Assembly (NCBI GenBank): GCA_030428255.1
Contig: JAUIBT010000006.1
Location: 1 to 64,000, forward strand
Length of the DNA: 64,000 bases
Direction of reading: 5' to 3'
Source: Alphaproteobacteria bacterium
GTDB lineage: Bacteria > Pseudomonadota > Alphaproteobacteria > UBA7985 > JAUIBT01
Shown in pieces: positions 26,310 through 35,182 of the stretch; positions within the stretch are counted from its first letter, which is position 1, and each line of letters opens with the position of its first letter. Below the pieces are notes generated by a model that was not told the origin of the DNA, made no database searches, and worked only from the letters and a program-made list of their open reading frames with translations. Made by a program: the position numbers and the translations under genes.

Positions 26310-27716
26310 CTAATTCGCGGCGCGGGCCAGCAGATCGCGTAAAGCCTGCTCAGTGCGGCGACCAAAAACGCCATCGGGCTCTCCGACAGCAAAGCCTTCA
26401 GCGGCCAATTGCTTTTGGATCTCGAGCATGATCGCGCCAGGGCGTTCTTTTCCCCGCTCGATAAACTGCTGTGCTGCCCAAGCATCGCCCCGCTGTAAGG
26501 CCTGCCAATAGAGCGCAGCGGCGCGCGGAAAGTTGGGCTCAATCGCAGCAACTGCTTGGCCCGCGTCACCTTCTTCACGGGCAGCAACACCGCGCTCTAG
26601 CAAGTCCGCCAAGAACGCCGCTGCGGCCTGCTCGCCGTTGGCGACGGCCTTTTCATACCAAGCCAAAGCTTTGTCTGGGGCTTGCTCGTGGGTCTCGTAG
26701 AGCCAAGCAGTGAGATACTGAGCAAAGGGGCTGCCTTGCTCGGCAACGTACTCGATCAGCGCCAGGGCTTCGCTGGGCCCCTTGCCGGGTACGCGGTTTT
26801 GCGCATAGAGCGTCGCCAGGACGTTGGAGGCGTTCCAGTCGCCTAAAGCGTGGCCGGTTTCAGCCAGCAGGGCAGCCTTGGCGTCATCGTCGCCTTGGCG
26901 CATGAGGCGGTAGGCCAAAAGACCATAGCCAACTGGCAGATCGTCCGCCACAGCGCGGCGATAAAGCCAATAGGCGGCCTTGGTTTCGCCCTGAGCCTCC
27001 ATGATGCGGCCAATGTAAGCAGAGATAGCCCCCAGCTTGCTCGGCACGACCTGCCAGGCCAGCTCACAGGCAGCCAGGGCCAGATCGGGTTGCAGATCGG
27101 CAAAGGCTGGGCCGCCGTATTGCTGGGGCGCGGCCTGCTGTAAGCAGCCGTCGAGACTGGCCTGTTGGTGCAGCGTTAGCGCGGATGCCGCAGCGACTGG
27201 TGCGGGCACTGGGGCCACTTCGGGAGCTTGCACGGGGTCGGACCCAGGGTCGGATGCTAGGGAAGCTTGGGGCTCCGCAGGTGTGCCGCCGGTGGCTGAC
27301 GCTTGCTCGCTGGTCTGCGCTGGGTTGCCGTCTGCTCCAGCAGCTTGGTCCTGTCCGGCGTCGCCTTCTGCCAGAGCCGTCGGCGTCGGTGCCTCCACAT
27401 CCGCTGATGGCAAGGCGGCTTGAGCGCCCGTCGCCTTGGGCTGAGCCTCGCCAGTGGCTTGGCTTGTCTCAGGCGTGCTCGACGCCGCCTCTTGCGCCCA
27501 GGATTGTGGGGCAAGCAGCCCGATTCCCAAAATCAGAGCCAAGATCAGCGCCGAGACCGGAGCGAGGAGCGCTTGAGCAGAAAGACGGGGCAAGGTGATG
27601 GGCATGGGCGCGGGTCCAGTAGCCAGAAGGTTTTGATCAGATGGCGGCATTGTCACAGTCTCGTCGGAGCGCGTCGCGGCGCATCTCGGGGCGGGGGCAA
27701 CGTAGGTTTCTTGCAT
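26310..27716 (-). CDS. Sel1-repeat protein with C-terminal peptidoglycan-binding domain
   Basis: The protein is 468 residues from ATG 27716, which overlaps the upstream capA-like stop as TGATG. A hydrophobic segment at about residues 50-75 (LALILGIGLLAPQSWAQ) could be an anchor. A start at ATG 27605 would turn it into an ordinary signal peptide. A long Ala/Pro/Glu/Gln-rich linker follows. From about residue 205 there are Sel1/TPR-like helical repeats (AYWLYRRAVADDLPVGYG, KALAWYEKAVANGEQAAAAF, AALYWQALQRGDAWAA). The last 45 residues, IQKQLAAEGFAVGEPDGVFG onward, match the PG_binding_1 fold. I infer a periplasmic scaffold tethered to the wall. It is the last gene of a three-gene coupled operon. 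Confidence 0.82.
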   Translation of the reverse strand: MQETYVAPAPRCAATRSDETVTMPPSDQNLLATGPAPMPITLPRLSAQALLAPVSALILALILGIGLLAPQSWAQEAASSTPETSQATGEAQPKATGAQAALPSADVEAPTPTALAEGDAGQDQAAGADGNPAQTSEQASATGGTPAEPQASLASDPGSDPVQAPEVAPVPAPVAAASALTLHQQASLDGCLQQAAPQQYGGPAFADLQPDLALAACELAWQVVPSKLGAISAYIGRIMEAQGETKAAYWLYRRAVADDLPVGYGLLAYRLMRQGDDDAKAALLAETGHALGDWNASNVLATLYAQNRVPGKGPSEALALIEYVAEQGSPFAQYLTAWLYETHEQAPDKALAWYEKAVANGEQAAAAFLADLLERGVAAREEGDAGQAVAAIEPNFPRAAALYWQALQRGDAWAAQQFIERGKERPGAIMLEIQKQLAAEGFAVGEPDGVFGRRTEQALRDLLARAAN

Positions 27717-29047
27717 CAGGGGTTCAGGGCGTACCAAGGGCGTCTTCCTTCGGGCGCATGGGCCACCAATGATCGTTTGCGCGGCTGCCGCTTGGCATCG
27801 TTGAGAACTTGCAGCGGCTTATGGCGGCGGATCTGCTCGGGCGAATTCAGCGCGCGCAGGCTTTGTGGCGAGGCTTCCAGCAGGCGTTCAATGCCGACCA
27901 ACCCGGCGGTGTGCTTGCGACTGACCTTGTGCGCTCCGCCAAGTCCTGAGTGGTTTAGTGTCAGCCGTGGACCCTTGGCGTCGAACACCATCAAGGTCGG
28001 CGTGTAGCGCGCTCTTGAAAGCACCAGGGGGGCTTTGCTTTCCTGGGCGAGGGGTTTGGCGCGGCAAAACTCCAAGTGCATAATGAGGCCCGCGCGGCGC
28101 GGAAGAATGCGCATGTTGGAGACAAAATTCCCGGTCGAAGCGACGATCAAGGTTTGACGTCCTTCGGGCGTCGTTTCCTCATACAGCGGTTGGACCACGT
28201 GCGGGTGGGTGCCCAGCACCAGGCTTGCCCCGGCTTTGATCATGTCTTGGCCCAAGCGGCGGTCCCGTCCGTTAATTTGGTGCGCGTACTCCACCCCCCA
28301 GTGAGGCGTAACGATTACCGCATCGACCTGCGGATCGGCCTTCAGAGCAGCGATGCTGTCCAGCACCTCTTGGCGGTGGCTATAGCAGCCGAGCACCTGG
28401 TTCTTGCGGTCCGGTATTCCGTTGGTGGAGTAAGTGCAGGCCAGCCAAGCAATGGTCGCGCCCTTGACCTGTGTCAGTCGATGGAAGGGCGCGCTGCTGC
28501 CTGCGCGCCGCGTGCCTGTATAGGCCAGCCCTGCGGCCTCCAGCGTATCAATGGTAGCGTCAACGCCAGGAGCCCAGCGGTCCAGCGCGTGGTTGTTGGC
28601 CGTTGAAACGATGTCAAAGCCGGCCTGCTTCAAGTCATCGACCAGCGAAGGGTGGTAGTTGAAGGAAGGAAAGGTCGTGTAGACCTTGTCGTCATAGCGT
28701 TTGCCGGGATCTTTGGTCTTGCGCCCGCCGCGCGCCAGGCCTGCGGCGGTCGGGCCTTCCAAATTGGCGTAAGCGATATCGGCGGCCTGAATGAGAGGCT
28801 CGGCCTCCTTCCACAAAGCGCGCGCGCTGTCTGGATCGCTGTAGGCTTTGAGCTGGAGTTTGCGGTGCAACAGCACGTCGCCTACGCCCAAAACAGAGAT
28901 GCGGTCTTGATCAGCGCAATAGTCGGGGCGCTCGAAAGCGCTCGCTGGCACGGCAAGGCTTGCGCATAGCGCCCAGGCCAGCAGCCAGGGTCGGTTGTTC
29001 TTCGCTGGCCGTACTAGCGGCAGAGTGGGGCGATACCTGCTGGTCAT
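27716..29047 (-). CDS. CapA-family (PGA_cap) metallophosphatase-like protein
   Basis: A 443-residue exported protein. The N-terminus has a signal segment LLAWALCASLAVPASAFERP (about residues 22-40). The catalytic fold follows with GVGDVLLHRKL, IAYANLEGP, STANNHALDRW, TPHWGVEYAH and LGTHPHVVQP, the Asp, Asn and His residues expected of the calcineurin-like CapA/PgsA family. Members are tied to poly-gamma-glutamate capsule export or anchoring, and others have unknown substrates. No capB or capC synthase is nearby, so capsule synthesis is not implied. The ATG overlaps the upstream stop as ATGA, and the next gene overlaps its stop as TGATG. The last 100 residues have no assigned domain. Confidence 0.88.
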   Translation of the reverse strand: MTSRYRPTLPLVRPAKNNRPWLLAWALCASLAVPASAFERPDYCADQDRISVLGVGDVLLHRKLQLKAYSDPDSARALWKEAEPLIQAADIAYANLEGPTAAGLARGGRKTKDPGKRYDDKVYTTFPSFNYHPSLVDDLKQAGFDIVSTANNHALDRWAPGVDATIDTLEAAGLAYTGTRRAGSSAPFHRLTQVKGATIAWLACTYSTNGIPDRKNQVLGCYSHRQEVLDSIAALKADPQVDAVIVTPHWGVEYAHQINGRDRRLGQDMIKAGASLVLGTHPHVVQPLYEETTPEGRQTLIVASTGNFVSNMRILPRRAGLIMHLEFCRAKPLAQESKAPLVLSRARYTPTLMVFDAKGPRLTLNHSGLGGAHKVSRKHTAGLVGIERLLEASPQSLRALNSPEQIRRHKPLQVLNDAKRQPRKRSLVAHAPEGRRPWYALNP

Positions 29048-30831
29048 AGAAACTCGGGAATAATGAGCGGCTTGTCCTCGGCACGCGTGGGTGCGCCAGG
29101 GCTGCCTGCGGGGCTGCCAACGGGGCCTGCCAAGGGGGTCTGGCCCGCTTGCGCCTCCTTGATTGCGTAAATATAGCCGTCGCGATTGCCGACGTAGATG
29201 CCGCCGTCCCAGACGGCTGGGGTGGACTCGATACAGCCGCCCGACGGAATTTGCATCCGCCAAACCAGGCGCGGGTTGGCAGGCTGGCTCAGGTCATAGC
29301 GCGCAAGACGGCCCCGGCAATCGGCGACCAGCAATTGATCCTCGACCACCACAGGCGACGACCAAGAATGGTAGCTGAGCTTCTCGCGAAAGGTCACTTC
29401 GCCGGTAGCGCTGTCAACGACCCAAAAATCACCGGTGTGCGCCACCACATAAAGATAACCTTCATACAGCGCGGGCGTGGCCCAAAGCCCGTATTTCTCG
29501 CCCGCCTTGGGGAAGTCGAGCTTCCAGTCCACGGGTTGATCAGGCCGGAAGGGGTTGAGGCGCGCAAGCTGGCCCGCACGCGCATGGCCCGCATTGTCCG
29601 GGCGCTCCTTTTCTGAGGCGACGTAGATCATGCCAGCCTGATCAATGACCAGGGTCGCGTCGGTGTCGTCGCCGGTCCAAAACTCGAAGACCTGAGCCTC
29701 ATCGCGGCTGGCGCCGCCGATAAGTTTGCCGATGTCGTAGCCTTGTACCAAGCCGCCAGAATTGCTGAAGTAGACCCGATCTTGCCACACCGCCACCGAG
29801 GCTTCGATAGAGACCATCCGGTCGCGCACCAGACGGAAAAGCTCGGGCGTATAGCCTTTGATCTTGGAGACGATCTTGGGGTTGACGTTGACGCTGCCGT
29901 TGAGCCAATGGCGGTTTAGCTTGACGATGTAGAAGAGGCTGTTCTCGCCGCCAACCAGCATGTAATCGTTAATGATCAAAGGGTTGCCGTCCCAATCGTT
30001 GTTCCAAACGGCTCCTGCGGTGCGGCCCGGCAATTTCCAAAGGACGCGTGCGCTTTCGCCATCCAGCGCAGCAATGCGCAAGAAATTGTCTCGGCTGCCG
30101 AAATAGATCAGCGGGTAGCCATCCGGGTCTAAGCTGACTGAGCCTTTGATGATGTCGTCAGTCGCCAGCGGTGGCCGCAGGTCCTGGCCGCTAACCGAAT
30201 CAAAAAAATGCACCGCGTGATCGTAGGCGCCCTGGATTACCTCGGTGCGTTCCTCACGCTGCCAAACCACGGGCTGACCTGTCCAGCCCGAACCGCACCA
30301 GCTTTTGGTTTCCTGACCGACGCTTGAGACACCGCAATAGGGGCCGCGTCGCCAGGCAATGGCCGGGCGGTCGGGCAAGGGGCCCTTGCCGTAGTAGCTA
30401 CGGGTTGGATTGCCGCGAAAGGCCAACAGTCCTTTGGCTCTGGCACGCGGCCAAGGCTTGCCGACGCTGCTCGGTGCGACCCAAACGGGGCTGCGCGCTT
30501 GCTGCGCGCTCTCGGTTTGCTTTGCGGTCTCGGTTTGGGCGCCCACTGATAGAGAAGGGGGCTTAATTTGGGGCGTGATCTGCGGCTCGTTCTGGGAGCC
30601 GCCCTGAAGGTCGCCCTGGGAGTCTCTCTGAGAAACGCCCTGAGAGTCGCCCTTGGAATCGCTCTGGGGTTCGGACGCAACGAGGGGGGCCTCGGTGACG
30701 GGCTCGCTCGCTGGCGCTGGCCCGGCGATGGGCAAGGGAAGAGGTTTATCGCCCGCCCAAGCGCCATGGCCTGGCAGCCCCAAAGCTACCAAGGTCAACA
30801 CAAGCAGCAGCGGCACGATGAAACGCGGCAT
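29044..30831 (-). CDS. Exported PQQ-like beta-propeller protein
   Basis: The 595-residue protein has a signal peptide (residues 1-26, VPLLLVLTLVALGLPGHGAWA) and a low-complexity Ser/Gln/Asp linker at about 50-110. From about residue 130 beta-propeller blades follow, each with W-x-G or Y-x-G and a hydrophobic strand: GAYDHAVHFFDSVSG, LIYFGSRDNFLRIAALDG, LIINDYMLVGGENSLFY, YEGYLYVVAHTGDFWVVDSA and WDGGIYVGNRDGYIYAI. PQQ-like repeat proteins include alcohol dehydrogenases and BamB-type scaffolds. No quinoprotein active-site Cys-Cys or Asp pattern is evident, so a structural or binding role is more likely than catalysis. It is the first gene of the operon with the CapA-like and Sel1 genes. Confidence 0.85.
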   Translation of the reverse strand: MPRFIVPLLLVLTLVALGLPGHGAWAGDKPLPLPIAGPAPASEPVTEAPLVASEPQSDSKGDSQGVSQRDSQGDLQGGSQNEPQITPQIKPPSLSVGAQTETAKQTESAQQARSPVWVAPSSVGKPWPRARAKGLLAFRGNPTRSYYGKGPLPDRPAIAWRRGPYCGVSSVGQETKSWCGSGWTGQPVVWQREERTEVIQGAYDHAVHFFDSVSGQDLRPPLATDDIIKGSVSLDPDGYPLIYFGSRDNFLRIAALDGESARVLWKLPGRTAGAVWNNDWDGNPLIINDYMLVGGENSLFYIVKLNRHWLNGSVNVNPKIVSKIKGYTPELFRLVRDRMVSIEASVAVWQDRVYFSNSGGLVQGYDIGKLIGGASRDEAQVFEFWTGDDTDATLVIDQAGMIYVASEKERPDNAGHARAGQLARLNPFRPDQPVDWKLDFPKAGEKYGLWATPALYEGYLYVVAHTGDFWVVDSATGEVTFREKLSYHSWSSPVVVEDQLLVADCRGRLARYDLSQPANPRLVWRMQIPSGGCIESTPAVWDGGIYVGNRDGYIYAIKEAQAGQTPLAGPVGSPAGSPGAPTRAEDKPLIIPEFL

Positions 30832-30941: not shown

Positions 30942-31802
30942 TCAGGGCCGCAGCGCGGCCAGGGCTTGGCGCATGGTCTCAACAAAGTCGGCGTCAGTAT
31001 TCACCAGCGGATCGAGCACCAAATAGCGCAATCCGCCCCGTTCGGCTGCCTCAACGGCCGAGGTGCTGGGCGGGAACTCAAACAGCATGATATCGGCTTT
31101 GCGCTCGCCTTGCAGCGCGGCGAGATCAGCCTCGTTTTCAGCGGTGATGGTTTCCGCCGCTTCCCAATGCAGGTAGCGCATATCAAGGCCATAGGCGGCG
31201 GCGAAATAGTGATAGACCGGATGCGAGCCGGCAAACGCTTGGCCTTGCAGGGCTGCCCCAGCAGCCGTGGCAGCGGCATCAAGTTCAGCCAGGTCAGCCT
31301 GTAAGGAGGCCAAGGCGGCGTCGACCGCGTCGCCCTCCAGCTTGAGCTTGCGCTTAAATGCGGTGGCAATGGCTTCTGCCTGCAAGCTGGCGATCGAGAA
31401 ATCCAGCCAAGTCACCGAGGCAAAATTGCCGTGTTCGTGGCTGTCGCCGCCGTGGGTGTGGGCAAGTGAATCGCCCCGCAAATAGCGGTCTTTGGCCTTG
31501 GCCGAGGTGTCAACCAGGCGCGAGCGGCGCAAGGAAACCTGCGGGAGCCAGGTGGCAAATCCGGCGCCGTTGAGCAGCACCAAGTCGGCGGCTTGGATCT
31601 GGGCGATGTCTTGGCTGCCCGGTTGCCAGAAGGCAGGGTCTTCACCCTCTGGCGCAGGCATGACGACCTCAACCGCATCTCCGGCCAAGCGCTGCGCAAA
31701 ATAGGCCAGGGGGGAATTCACCGCGACCACCAGGGGCTTGGCAATAGCTGAGCTGGCAAGAGCTCCGAACAGGAGAATGAAGACGGAAACTGTAAGGCGC
31801 AT
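30942..31802 (-). CDS. ZnuA-like metal-binding periplasmic protein
   Basis: A cluster A-I substrate-binding protein of 286 residues with a signal peptide (residues 1-21, LFGALASSAIA). Residues 114-125 form a His-rich loop (HTHGGDSHEHG), as in zinc-binding ZnuA proteins. The family landmarks are VVAVNSPLAYFAQRLAGD, VLLNGAGFATWLP, the second-lobe metal site FAGSHPVYHYFAAAYGL, and LRYLVLDPLV near the C-terminus. It probably captures Zn2+ or a similar divalent metal. It lies 72 bp after the ABC permease gene on the same strand and is the last gene of a metal-related operon. The usual ZnuB/ZnuC partners are absent; a MacB/Lol-type transporter is there instead. Confidence 0.88.
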   Translation of the reverse strand: MRLTVSVFILLFGALASSAIAKPLVVAVNSPLAYFAQRLAGDAVEVVMPAPEGEDPAFWQPGSQDIAQIQAADLVLLNGAGFATWLPQVSLRRSRLVDTSAKAKDRYLRGDSLAHTHGGDSHEHGNFASVTWLDFSIASLQAEAIATAFKRKLKLEGDAVDAALASLQADLAELDAAATAAGAALQGQAFAGSHPVYHYFAAAYGLDMRYLHWEAAETITAENEADLAALQGERKADIMLFEFPPSTSAVEAAERGGLRYLVLDPLVNTDADFVETMRQALAALRP

Positions 31803-31874: not shown

Positions 31875-33041
31875 TTATAGGACGGGTGCAATCAGCAACA
31901 CCACCAGCTCGCCGACCAAAGCATCGGCGGTGAGCCAGGCAAGCGCTGCTAATGCAACACCGCCAGTCAGCAAAAGCAACAGCTCCAAACTGACAAGCCG
32001 CAAGCTGAACCAGCGATCAGCACCCAATTGATAGTTGGTGCGCATCTCTGCCTGGCGCAATTGCAAGGATAAGAAAACCGCCAGACCCAAGGCGAAGAGT
32101 GCCGCGAGCGCGACCACTGCGACCACGGCATCCAGCACGGCCTTGAAGCGAAACAAGCTTTCCATCAACTGACCGATGAGTGGGGCCGGTTGGATGGCTT
32201 GTATGGAGCTGTCAGGGCTTTGGAACAGGCCGCGCAAAATGGTCTTGGACTTATGATCATAGGGCAGGGCGATGACAGCGGTGACTGGGTAGCCCTCGGG
32301 ATCGCCGTGAAAGTGGAAGCTCGCGCGGTTTTCGTCGGTAATGCGTGCGAACTGGCGCTGGGCGGCGTTGGCCACGATCACACCGTCTGGCGTCACCCCG
32401 GCGGCGATCACATCGTCGTGCCCGTGTCCGATGCCCTGGATAATCCACGAGGTCTTGATATCCGTAAAGATGGCCCCGTCGTCCGGGCTACCGGTGGGCT
32501 CAAGCACCCCGACCACATCGAGTTGAAGGGGGTAGCTGGCGGTCAGATCGAACAGATTTTCCGGCTGCGAGACCAAAGACTGCCCGGGCGCCAGTTCCAG
32601 CTTGCGCGCGACCTCAGACCCCAGCACCACCTCGCCGATCAGTGAAAAGGCGCGGCCCGACTGATACTGAAAGTCGCGAAAGTCCAGATAGTCCAAGCTG
32701 GTGCCAACAACCGCCGCGCCGCCCGCGCGATAGCGGATGTGCAGCGGAATAATGTCGGCATATCCGGTGTCCCAAAGCTGATCGACCGTGGCCATGCTGG
32801 CGGGCTGGGGCGCTTGTCCCTGAAAATACAGCGCTTTAATCGCCAGATCCATGGCTGACCCCTGGCGGCCGAGCAGCAGGGGCGTGGTCTGCGCGCGCGC
32901 GGTCATCAGCTCTTGGCTGCGGGTCAATAGGCTTTGGGTGACCAGGGGAACTGCCAAGATCAAACCAGTGGCCAACACCATCACCAGGCTCTTGAGCCAG
33001 TGGTAGCGCAGATAGGCAAGCGCGAGGTAGAGGCTAGGCAT
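31875..33041 (-). CDS. FtsX/MacB-type ABC transporter permease
   Basis: The 388-residue protein has the four-helix FtsX layout: one N-terminal helix (about 15-35), a large periplasmic domain (about 36-270, MacB_PCD-like), then three helices (about 285-312, 330-352, 360-385). VVTAVIALPYDHKSK-type sequence lies in the periplasmic part. It pairs with the ATPase whose gene overlaps it by 8 bp. FtsX-type permeases generally do not carry small ions through the membrane; they transmit force or extract lipids and peptides. Its presence in a metal operon is therefore unusual. Confidence 0.88.
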   Translation of the reverse strand: MPSLYLALAYLRYHWLKSLVMVLATGLILAVPLVTQSLLTRSQELMTARAQTTPLLLGRQGSAMDLAIKALYFQGQAPQPASMATVDQLWDTGYADIIPLHIRYRAGGAAVVGTSLDYLDFRDFQYQSGRAFSLIGEVVLGSEVARKLELAPGQSLVSQPENLFDLTASYPLQLDVVGVLEPTGSPDDGAIFTDIKTSWIIQGIGHGHDDVIAAGVTPDGVIVANAAQRQFARITDENRASFHFHGDPEGYPVTAVIALPYDHKSKTILRGLFQSPDSSIQAIQPAPLIGQLMESLFRFKAVLDAVVAVVALAALFALGLAVFLSLQLRQAEMRTNYQLGADRWFSLRLVSLELLLLLTGGVALAALAWLTADALVGELVVLLIAPVL

Positions 33042-33747
33042 GTTGGGCCTCGCTTGTGGTGTTCAGGCTGTGACGGAAATCAGCGAAGTCGATCACGCGA
33101 TCAAATCGATCCAGCAAGCCGTGGTCGTGTGTGACCGCTAACAACGCCGCGCCATCGTCCTCAACGCGCCGAAACAGCAGCTCCAAAATCAGGGTCTTAT
33201 TCTCCGGATCCAGATTGCCGGTCGCCTCGTCGGCGAGCAATAGGCGCGGGCTGCGGATGAGGGCTCGGCAGATGGCAACCCGCTGTTTCTCCCCCTGCGA
33301 CAGTGCGCGGGGCAATTGCTTCAAGCGATCGCTGACCCCGACAGCTTCGGCCAAAGCGGCGGCACGCTGTCGGACCTCGGCGGTCAGGCGCGCGTCTGGG
33401 TCGAGGCGGTAGGGGTGCAGGATGTTGTCATAGGCGGTCAGGTAGGGAATGAGCTGGAAGTCTTGAAACACAAAGCCAAGCTTGCGGCGGCGCAGGCGGC
33501 GACGGGCAGCATCGCGCAGGCCGGTCATAGGGCTGTCATCAATGACGATCTTGCCGTGCTGGGGGATCAGCAAGCCCGCCAATAGATTAAGCAGAGTAGT
33601 CTTGCCGGTGCCTGACGGGCCAACGATGGCGACTTTCTCGCGCGCCGCCAGCTTGAGGCCAGGGACCTGAAGTCGAAAGTTCGCTTTGGGATAGGAAAAT
33701 GCCAGGTCCTGTACGCTGATCATCGCTAGGCTTGCGGTTTCGCTCAT
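33034..33747 (-). CDS. LolD/MacB-type ABC transporter ATP-binding protein
   Basis: A 237-residue ATPase with Walker A GPSGTGKTTLL (residues 43-53), the Q-loop FVFQDFQLIPYLTAYDN, signature LSQGEKQRVAICRAL and Walker B LLLADEATGNLD, followed by the switch histidine in VTHDHGLL. The pattern is that of the LolD/FtsE/MacB family, which drives FtsX-type permeases. Both neighbours overlap it, so the three genes are translated together. Confidence 0.93.
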   Translation of the reverse strand: MSETASLAMISVQDLAFSYPKANFRLQVPGLKLAAREKVAIVGPSGTGKTTLLNLLAGLLIPQHGKIVIDDSPMTGLRDAARRRLRRRKLGFVFQDFQLIPYLTAYDNILHPYRLDPDARLTAEVRQRAAALAEAVGVSDRLKQLPRALSQGEKQRVAICRALIRSPRLLLADEATGNLDPENKTLILELLFRRVEDDGAALLAVTHDHGLLDRFDRVIDFADFRHSLNTTSEAQHA

Positions 33748-34355
33748 GGCTGTGCCTCCTGTGGCGTGGCTTGCCCAATCGGCTGTCCAGCATCGCTGCG
33801 GTCTACGTCCTGCAACTCGAAAGCGACAATCCGCCAGCGACCTTGCCAGGGAGCCATGGTTAGGCGCGCGCTATAAACATTGCCGCGGATATGTTGGTGG
33901 ACGCCATGGCCCACCAGCCCGATCACCGCCCAGCGGGCATCATAGTCCAGCGTATAGCTGTTCGGCAGCCAGGCGTAGTCCAGAGCGCGCAGCTCTATCG
34001 AGTGCAGGGTTTGGCTGGCGGGATCTAGGCCGGACTGCAAGGTGGCTTGCTTTTGCAAGTAAAGATCTTCGAGCACCTGGGGCGCGGTCGCCTCCGCCAG
34101 GGCGTCGTAGATTTCTTCGGGCTCGCGCAGGTCAAAGGCAGCGTAAATCTGGCGCAAAGTGTCCAATATCAATTTGTCAGGCCGTTCTTGGACCTGGGTC
34201 AGGCTTGGCGCATCTGGGGCGAGTTCCAGCGATGGTAGGGATTGCCAGCGCTCGCCATAGGCCCACCACAGCCCCAGCGCGCCCGCCAAAATCAACACGA
34301 TCAAGCGTGGGTTCCAGTTGCGCGGATTTAGACGCGATAGCTTTGTATGTTTCAT
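33744..34355 (-). CDS. Membrane-anchored periplasmic protein of the metal operon
   Basis: A 203-residue protein with a basic N-terminus, one helix at residues 17-33 (LIVLILAGALGLWWAYG) and a soluble domain. The soluble part has a helical start (DTLRQIYAAFDLREPEEIYDAL) followed by strands ending WQGRWRIVAFELQDVDR. The shape suggests an NTF2- or SnoaL-like fold, but I do not recognise a family. It overlaps the ZIP gene upstream and the ATPase gene downstream by 4 bp (ATGA) each, so it is likely part of the same complex. Confidence 0.75.
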   Translation of the reverse strand: MKHTKLSRLNPRNWNPRLIVLILAGALGLWWAYGERWQSLPSLELAPDAPSLTQVQERPDKLILDTLRQIYAAFDLREPEEIYDALAEATAPQVLEDLYLQKQATLQSGLDPASQTLHSIELRALDYAWLPNSYTLDYDARWAVIGLVGHGVHQHIRGNVYSARLTMAPWQGRWRIVAFELQDVDRSDAGQPIGQATPQEAQP

Positions 34356-35089
34356 AGAGCGGCATCCAGCAACATCATGGCTGCCAGTCCGAACGTGGCA
34401 ATGGTGCCGGCGGTCGCGGCGTTGCAGCTTTTAAACGATTCGGGCAGCAGATCGGCAAGGCACATCCATATCATGGCTCCAGCAGCTAGTCCCAGCCCCC
34501 AGGGCATCAGGGGTTCGAAAGACAGGACGGCGAAGTAGGCGGGCAGCGCCAACAGCGGTTGCGGCAGGCTGGAGACAATCGCCCAGAGCGTTGCTTGTCC
34601 CACGCTGACCCCGCTCGGCACCAGCACCAAGGCTATCGCCAGGCCCTCGGGAATATTTTGCAGTGCCATGGCCAAAGTCACCAAGAAACCAAGCTCGTCG
34701 CCCGGGCCGAAGGCAACGCCGATTGAGATACCCTCCGCGCCCGAATGCAGGGTCATGATTAGGACAATCATCATACCGCGCCTGCTCAATGCCGTGCGCG
34801 GGCGCTCTGCGATCATGCTGCTCGGCTCCTTGTACGCCAAACCAATATGGATGGCATAGGCCAGGACGATTCCCAGCGTGAGCCCGCCAAGTGTCGGCCA
34901 AAGCGCCGCCTTGTTGCCTGCCTGGATCAACAGCACCGACGCGCCAATCATCAGGCCGGCCGCCAAAGCATTCGCAAGGCCTTGCTGGGTTTTGCTGAGG
35001 TCCTTGCGCAGGTAAAAAGGCAAGGCCCCCAATCCAGTAGCAAGTGCAGTCGCAAAGGCAGCAGCGGTGACGATCCAAAGGTGAGGCAT
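34352..35089 (-). CDS. ZIP-family metal transporter
   Basis: A 245-residue integral membrane protein with about eight helices. The ZIP metal-site motifs are HSGAEGISIGVAFG in helix 4 and QNIPEGLAIAL in helix 5. ZIP permeases import Zn2+, Fe2+ or Mn2+ into the cytoplasm without ATP. The intracellular His-rich loop of eukaryotic members is absent. It is the first gene of the operon, with the ATG about 250 bp from the divergent VOC gene. Confidence 0.93.
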   Translation of the reverse strand: MPHLWIVTAAAFATALATGLGALPFYLRKDLSKTQQGLANALAAGLMIGASVLLIQAGNKAALWPTLGGLTLGIVLAYAIHIGLAYKEPSSMIAERPRTALSRRGMMIVLIMTLHSGAEGISIGVAFGPGDELGFLVTLAMALQNIPEGLAIALVLVPSGVSVGQATLWAIVSSLPQPLLALPAYFAVLSFEPLMPWGLGLAAGAMIWMCLADLLPESFKSCNAATAGTIATFGLAAMMLLDAAL

Positions 35090-35150
35090 GACGAGGCTCT
35101 GTTTAGTGAGGTAGCCAGGAAGTCGCTGAGGTCAAGCCAGCAAGCTGGTG

Positions 35151-35182
35151 ATTCAGCCTAGCAGGTCATTCAGCCTAGCAGG
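35151..35182. repeat. Short direct repeat upstream of the ZIP operon
   Basis: ATTCAGCCTAGCAGG occurs at 35151-35165 and again at 35168-35182, a period of 17 bp. It lies 60-95 bp upstream of the ZIP start. It does not match the Zur-box consensus that I know. Confidence 0.6.

Follow-up and report, generated by a model that had tools for sequence, protein, structure and literature searches.

Operon content and question

What kind of metal system is encoded when a ZIP-family permease shares an operon with a MacB-type ATP-binding cassette (ABC) pair and a ZnuA-like protein? The window, a 64,000-nucleotide stretch of contig JAUIBT010000006.1 from an alphaproteobacterium, carries such an operon on its minus strand, from 35089 down to 30942, with genes for a ZIP permease, a membrane-anchored periplasmic protein (here P2), an ABC ATPase, a MacB-superfamily permease, and a ZnuA-like protein. 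On the basis of conserved residues, predicted folds, and gene neighborhoods, we read the operon as a periplasmic and inner-membrane machine for metal acquisition, sister to the Zrg zinc system, in which a periplasmic relay and an ATP-driven hand-over would serve the ZIP permease as the path inward; we regard this reading as evenly poised between right and wrong. The original prediction had named five minus-strand genes, the first four overlapping by 4-8 bp, and all five open reading frames were found where it placed them; adjoining genes share 4, 4, and 8 bp at the first three junctions, and 72 bp separate the permease and ZnuA-like genes. The features are as follows (aa, amino acids; TM, transmembrane helix).

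34352..35089, minus strand: ZIP-family permease, 245 aa, first gene, with HSGAEG in TM4 and QNIPEG in TM5 (Pfam Zip, E 4.6e-14; alignment with other ZIPs)
33744..34355, minus strand: P2, membrane-anchored periplasmic protein with a predicted NTF2-like domain, 203 aa (homologues encoded next to the ABC pair in several phyla; AlphaFold, Foldseek)
33885..33908, minus strand: P2 motif HxxHxHxR (H150, H153, H155, R157), invariant in 28 P2 homologues
33034..33747, minus strand: ABC ATPase of FtsE/LolD/MacB type, 237 aa (Pfam ABC_tran, E 1.6e-33)
31875..33041, minus strand: MacB-superfamily permease with a large periplasmic domain, 388 aa (Pfam MacB_PCD, E 8.8e-8)
32418..32426, minus strand: permease motif HGH (H206, H208), in 36/36 window-type members and 0/43 ZrgB relatives
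32307..32315, minus strand: permease motif HFH (H243, H245), in 36/36 window-type members; a gap in 43/43 ZrgB relatives
30942..31802, minus strand: ZnuA-like periplasmic protein with an altered ligand set, 286 aa (Pfam ZnuA, E 4.8e-36)
31431..31460, minus strand: double HxH loop HTHGGDSHEH (H115, H117, H122, H124) of the ZnuA-like protein, in 53/53 system proteins and 1/6 canonical controls

The ZnuA-like protein has an altered ligand set

The ZnuA-like protein contains a PF01297 domain, and the system shares with the cluster A-I importers ZnuABC and MntABC a binding protein of this family with a His-rich loop. It differs from them in its metal ligands, His1 being missing from 53/53 and His2 from 47/53 of the window-type binding proteins, which we counted where they are encoded near the ABC genes. 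In the window protein, Ala and Val occupy the His1 and His2 positions, whereas His194 and Glu242 are retained; across the counted set, the canonical residues were present in 0/53 (His1), 6/53 (His2), 51/53 (His3), and 49/53 (Glu) proteins. The double loop HxH...HxH was found in all 53. In contrast, six canonical homologues taken as controls, one of them from the window genome, all kept both His1 and His2, and only one had the double loop. The same ligand replacement was seen against YcdH and AdcA in a profile alignment with their PDB structures. The His loop that had been predicted is thus real, but most of the canonical ZnuA metal ligands are missing from the protein that bears it; being ligand-altered, the ZnuA-like protein is not a normal zinc-binding component of an importer. 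Moreover, the window operon has no ABC-3 permease: its ABC permease is of the MacB_PCD family, and the only other permease is the ZIP protein. Ligand loss and permease type together rule out a normal ZnuABC partner.

His clusters mark the permease and P2

An AlphaFold model of the permease (predicted local distance difference test score, pLDDT, 88.9) gave MacB as its best Foldseek match (5gko, E 1.8e-12), with further matches to structures of LolCDE (including LolE), YbbAP, and HrtBA (HrtB). As in other members of the MacB superfamily, a periplasmic core lies between TM1 and TM2 and the C-terminal helices are FtsX-like. The best NCBIfam models for the ATPase were FtsE, LolD, and DevA, all under cut-off. 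Permease fold and ATPase type are common to this system and to MacAB-TolC and LolCDE; what sets window-type permeases apart is their invariant periplasmic His motifs. Both HGH and HFH are present in the periplasmic domain of every aligned window-type permease (36/36) and neither occurs in the 43 permeases of zrgA loci, an invariance owed partly to a motif-based scan, although methanotroph loci, which were found via the binding protein, carry the motifs too. In a tree, the 36 window-type and 43 zrgA-linked permeases formed separate clades with moderate support (0.79 and 0.72, from a single method). No MacA, TolC, or Lol partner was recognized among the recurring neighbors in the sampled clusters; no dedicated or genome-wide search for them was made.

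P2 matches no family in Pfam or NCBIfam. Its AlphaFold model (pLDDT 88.5) resembles the NTF2-like folds of ARC6, VirB8, and dehydratases in Foldseek, and its HxxHxHxR motif is invariant across 28 homologues. These homologues often form the C-terminal part of proteins of 380-620 aa; the fused N-terminal region, of ∼300-400 aa, occurs in many lineages (L006, 1654-3471; L061, 6778-8271; L034, 6849-8327) and belongs to no Pfam family.

The core recurs across phyla with metal-linked partners

Another genome of the genus (L005/L024) has all five genes in identical order, followed by the same two downstream genes, and a further fragment from the genus (L055) keeps the portion from the permease onward. 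The core of P2, ATPase, permease, and ZnuA-like protein recurs in Alpha- and Gammaproteobacteria, Planctomycetes, Verrucomicrobia, and Sumerlaeota, at times divided among loci. The neighborhood is thus conserved in relatives, on which the original prediction had staked itself, and recurrence so far beyond the genus indicates that the grouping is not a matter of chance. One pattern-based scan yielded 34 permease loci from these same five groups; its peptide patterns included the GIGH and SFHFH motifs, which biases it toward motif-bearing permeases. By profile search, close members numbered 3 in 385 genomes of the window's class, and the system was found in 6/397 genomes of the phylum, 21/299 genomes of one alphaproteobacterial family, and 29/201 genomes of the order of Methylococcus sp. 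UBA6136, the last found via the binding protein.

In the alphaproteobacterial family, the order is P2, ATPase, permease, a DUF4198 protein, a NikL-like protein, and the ZnuA-like protein, with the DUF4198 (NikK-like) and NikL-like proteins present in 18/19 loci; a Paracoccus liaowanqingii plasmid carries the same gene set. Against the NCBIfam model for nickel/cobalt NikL, the NikL-like protein reaches E 7.5e-14, under the curated cut-off. The usual order in methanotrophs is a BNR protein, CopC, a ∼235-aa protein, a P2 fusion, ATPase, permease, and ZnuA-like protein, with a TonB receptor nearby, and on a Methylomagnum plasmid a NikR gene lies past the adjoining divergent TonB receptor gene. Conserved CTCCW and CPHC motifs in the methanotroph BNR proteins (L134-L150), annotated as "sialidase family," suggest that they may be propellers that bind metal rather than sialidases. 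Many planctomycetes encode the ABC pair at one locus of the genome and the binding protein at another. Where the ABC pair has no adjacent binding protein, a relative was found elsewhere in 20/21 genomes searched, several being canonical or weak matches.

Around the window operon itself, the ZIP gene has a divergent VOC-family gene as its upstream neighbor. A tandem 17-bp near-repeat lies 5' of the ZIP gene (35148-35181) and was not seen in the matching intergenic region of the sister genome. On the same strand, 3' of the operon (27716-30831), genes for a PQQ-type beta-propeller and a PGA_cap protein are kept within the genus (L024, L055).

A sister of Zrg with its own ZIP gene

The closest described relative is Zrg, in which zrgA encodes a DUF2796 protein, zrgB a MacB-like permease, zrgC an ATPase, zrgD a DUF2607 protein, and zrgE a DUF3299 protein, and which supports growth at low zinc (PMC9820375, PMC9817125). 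The zrg operons of Vibrio cholerae and V. parahaemolyticus contain no ZIP gene (PMC9820375, PMC9817125), so that the ZIP component that the original prediction ascribed to V. cholerae zrgABCDE is not among its published genes. Like ZrgABCDE of Vibrio and PA4063-PA4066 of Pseudomonas aeruginosa, the window system combines a separate ATPase and MacB-like permease with a His-containing periplasmic partner. It differs in having the ZnuA-like protein and P2 in place of ZrgA, ZrgD, and ZrgE, and a permease that falls in a different clade and carries the HGH and HFH motifs missing from ZrgB relatives. ZrgA (PF10986) had no match in the window genome, in a search that exceeded the cut-off in 83/397 genomes; its absence, together with the placement of the permease outside the ZrgB clade, excludes membership in Zrg. 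A composite metal system of a MacB-type ABC pair with a ZnuA-like partner, related to Zrg yet distinct from it, is what had been foreseen, and this holds; the narrower idea of a Zrg variant with an exchanged partner gives way to a separate clade sister to ZrgB. As judged from sequence comparisons, then, the system appears to be a sister of the Zrg zinc system and not a member of it.

The ZIP permease scores 52.8 bits against Pfam PF02535 (cut-off 35.1) and carries the H..xEG motif of TM4 and the xxxPEG motif of TM5, thus sharing with ZupT and other ZIP transporters the conserved TM4 His/Glu and TM5 PE residues. Its match to the NCBIfam ZupT equivalog is weaker (E 8e-21, 74 bits against a cut-off of 252), and unlike those transporters it is the operon partner of a MacB-type ABC system. 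The ZIP gene is a local addition in the window genus. A similar pairing occurs in Zrg: among 50 zrgA loci drawn from 92 genomes, three, in genomes of three different families, have a ZIP gene beside zrgA, all confirmed by Pfam. In two, zrgA directly follows a ZIP gene of its own strand (L227, 4928-6279; L250, 6049-7358), and in the third it is divergent to zrgA (L270, 4725-6395). The motifs of these ZIPs differ from those of the window ZIP, which suggests separate recruitment and a pairing that recurs. Further, one genome (G865; C6, C10) holds both a window-type system and a ZrgA-linked ABC pair, which coexist there as distinct systems.

The identity of the metal

By analogy with Zrg, the substrate may be zinc. 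The neighbors of relatives point instead to nickel or cobalt in the alphaproteobacterial family and to copper in the methanotrophs; this, and the occurrence in the window genome of a Zur-like gene and a second ZIP gene in divergent orientation (L206, G000:C56, 1438-2813), an arrangement suggestive of a Zur-controlled ZIP, led us to reject zinc as a certain substrate. Nickel as a certain substrate was likewise rejected. The DUF4198 proteins of Caulobacter crescentus are Fur-regulated (PMC3751524), the window operon has neither NikK nor NikL, and the genome has a separate cluster of the NikKMLQO type (NikK, NikM, NikL, NikQ, and NikO; L202, G000:C6, 4771-8657). Relatives in the alphaproteobacterial family share DUF4198 (NikK-like) and NikL-like proteins with the NikKMLQO nickel/cobalt energy-coupling factor transporters, whereas their operons lack CbiM/NikM and NikQ; the window operon itself also lacks CbiM/NikM, which lies at the other locus (C6).

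The window genome also encodes a canonical-ligand metal-binding protein, an ATPase, and two further membrane proteins, after which comes an MntR-like gene. Given these other metal systems, the operon is not the only nickel/cobalt or manganese route in this genome, and perhaps not the only zinc route. A second MacB-like ATPase-permease pair stands beside genes for an alkaline phosphatase and a small CPFC-motif protein (L023, G000:C31, 4780-8973); genes so arranged are also found on Shinella and Thermus plasmids (L064, 2009-6248; L063, 2018-6125), and the pair could serve the metal supply of the phosphatase.

A proposed relay and its alternatives

That three periplasmic parts bear invariant His clusters and are encoded beside a MacB-type permease powered by ATP suggests uptake of the metal, its transfer from part to part, and its release. 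In the mechanism that we propose, (i) the ZnuA-like protein would pick up a divalent metal via its double HxH loop and its retained His and Glu, rather than at a classical four-ligand site; (ii) the anchored, NTF2-like P2 and the periplasmic domain of the permease, each with its His cluster, would form a relay; (iii) ATP hydrolysis would move the periplasmic domain of the permease, leading to hand-over or release of the metal; and (iv) the ZIP permease would be the probable path across the inner membrane in the window genus, while in other lineages the ABC pair would have to manage without an adjacent ZIP. Metal binding, transfer between the parts, an inward direction, and the role of ZIP are all inferred here. 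Consistent with such a scheme, the core genes are found together across phyla, their partners in relatives are metal-acquisition proteins (DUF4198 and NikL-like proteins; CopC, TonB receptors, and the BNR protein), a DUF4198 protein binds nickel with a dissociation constant of 18 nM (PMC12537917), and ZIP precedes zrgA in two genuine zrg operons.

Several observations weigh against it. No MacB-superfamily protein is known to import ions. Among the loci examined, a ZIP gene adjoins the core in the window genus only. Some planctomycete binding proteins that are encoded elsewhere, outside the 53, have lost part of the HxH loop. We saw no convincing Zur box by eye 5' of the ZIP gene, and a scan 5' of related operons gave no shared inverted repeat. 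In the literature, we found no experimental work on any member of the system, and PA4064-PA4065, a Zrg relative of P. aeruginosa, has been argued to export pyochelin (PMC11481552).

The MacB-type pair might itself be the importer, receiving metal from the ZnuA-like protein in the manner of ZnuABC; ZIP would then be an independent importer of low affinity that happens to lie in the operon. Lineages that have no adjacent ZIP or other obvious channel would be explained in this way, and in the Vibrio papers ZrgBC is taken to import zinc, with ZrgA serving it (PMC9820375, PMC9817125). We nevertheless consider direct import rather unlikely. The MacB superfamily works by mechanotransmission, with no ion path known.

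If the pair instead exported or recycled a metallophore or metal complex in the manner of MacB, from which the periplasmic proteins would strip the metal, then the structural match to MacB and the TonB receptors near the methanotroph clusters would find a ready place, as would the proposal that PA4064-PA4065 exports a pyochelin-cobalt complex (PMC11481552). This is improbable in our judgment, given that no MacA-like, TolC-like, or metallophore synthesis genes were recognized among the recurring neighbors and that the invariant His clusters lie on periplasmic parts. Delivery of metal to periplasmic or outer-membrane metalloproteins, with little part in cytoplasmic supply, would accord with the CopC neighbors in methanotrophs, which would fit copper delivery, and with the related MacB-like pairs that adjoin a gene for a periplasmic metalloenzyme, alkaline phosphatase, both in this genome and on the Shinella and Thermus plasmids; the ZIP gene in the window operon, however, suggests transport inward to the cytoplasm, and we hold such a delivery role to be distinctly improbable.

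Implications for MacB-type metal systems

No published description of the window-type combination was found in the open-licence literature, which is weak evidence of absence. Beyond the reading of the operon as an acquisition machine, we tentatively suggest, as possible rather than probable, that it represents a separate and widespread family of ATP-driven metal-acquisition systems, built from a MacB-type mechanotransmitter, a ligand-altered ZnuA, and an NTF2-like His relay. The orphan NikK/NikL proteins of one lineage and the CopC/TonB modules of methanotrophs would then have their missing partner in such a family, which in the window genus would be coupled to a ZIP channel. For the orphan NikK/NikL proteins, no gene that would explain them turned up among their neighbors in a 2009 survey (PMC2667541), and the window-type system offers them a partner. 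It also defines a group of ZnuA homologues whose annotation by pipelines as zinc-binding conflicts with the loss of the ligands by which zinc binding is defined.

The role of Zrg-type systems is disputed, with an importer proposed in Vibrio (PMC9820375, PMC9817125) and a metallophore exporter in Pseudomonas (PMC11481552). A sister family with His clusters of its own and different partners provides an independent means of settling how MacB-type proteins handle metals, and with ZIP genes recurring in front of MacB-type metal ABC genes, the idea of a division between path and work becomes directly testable.
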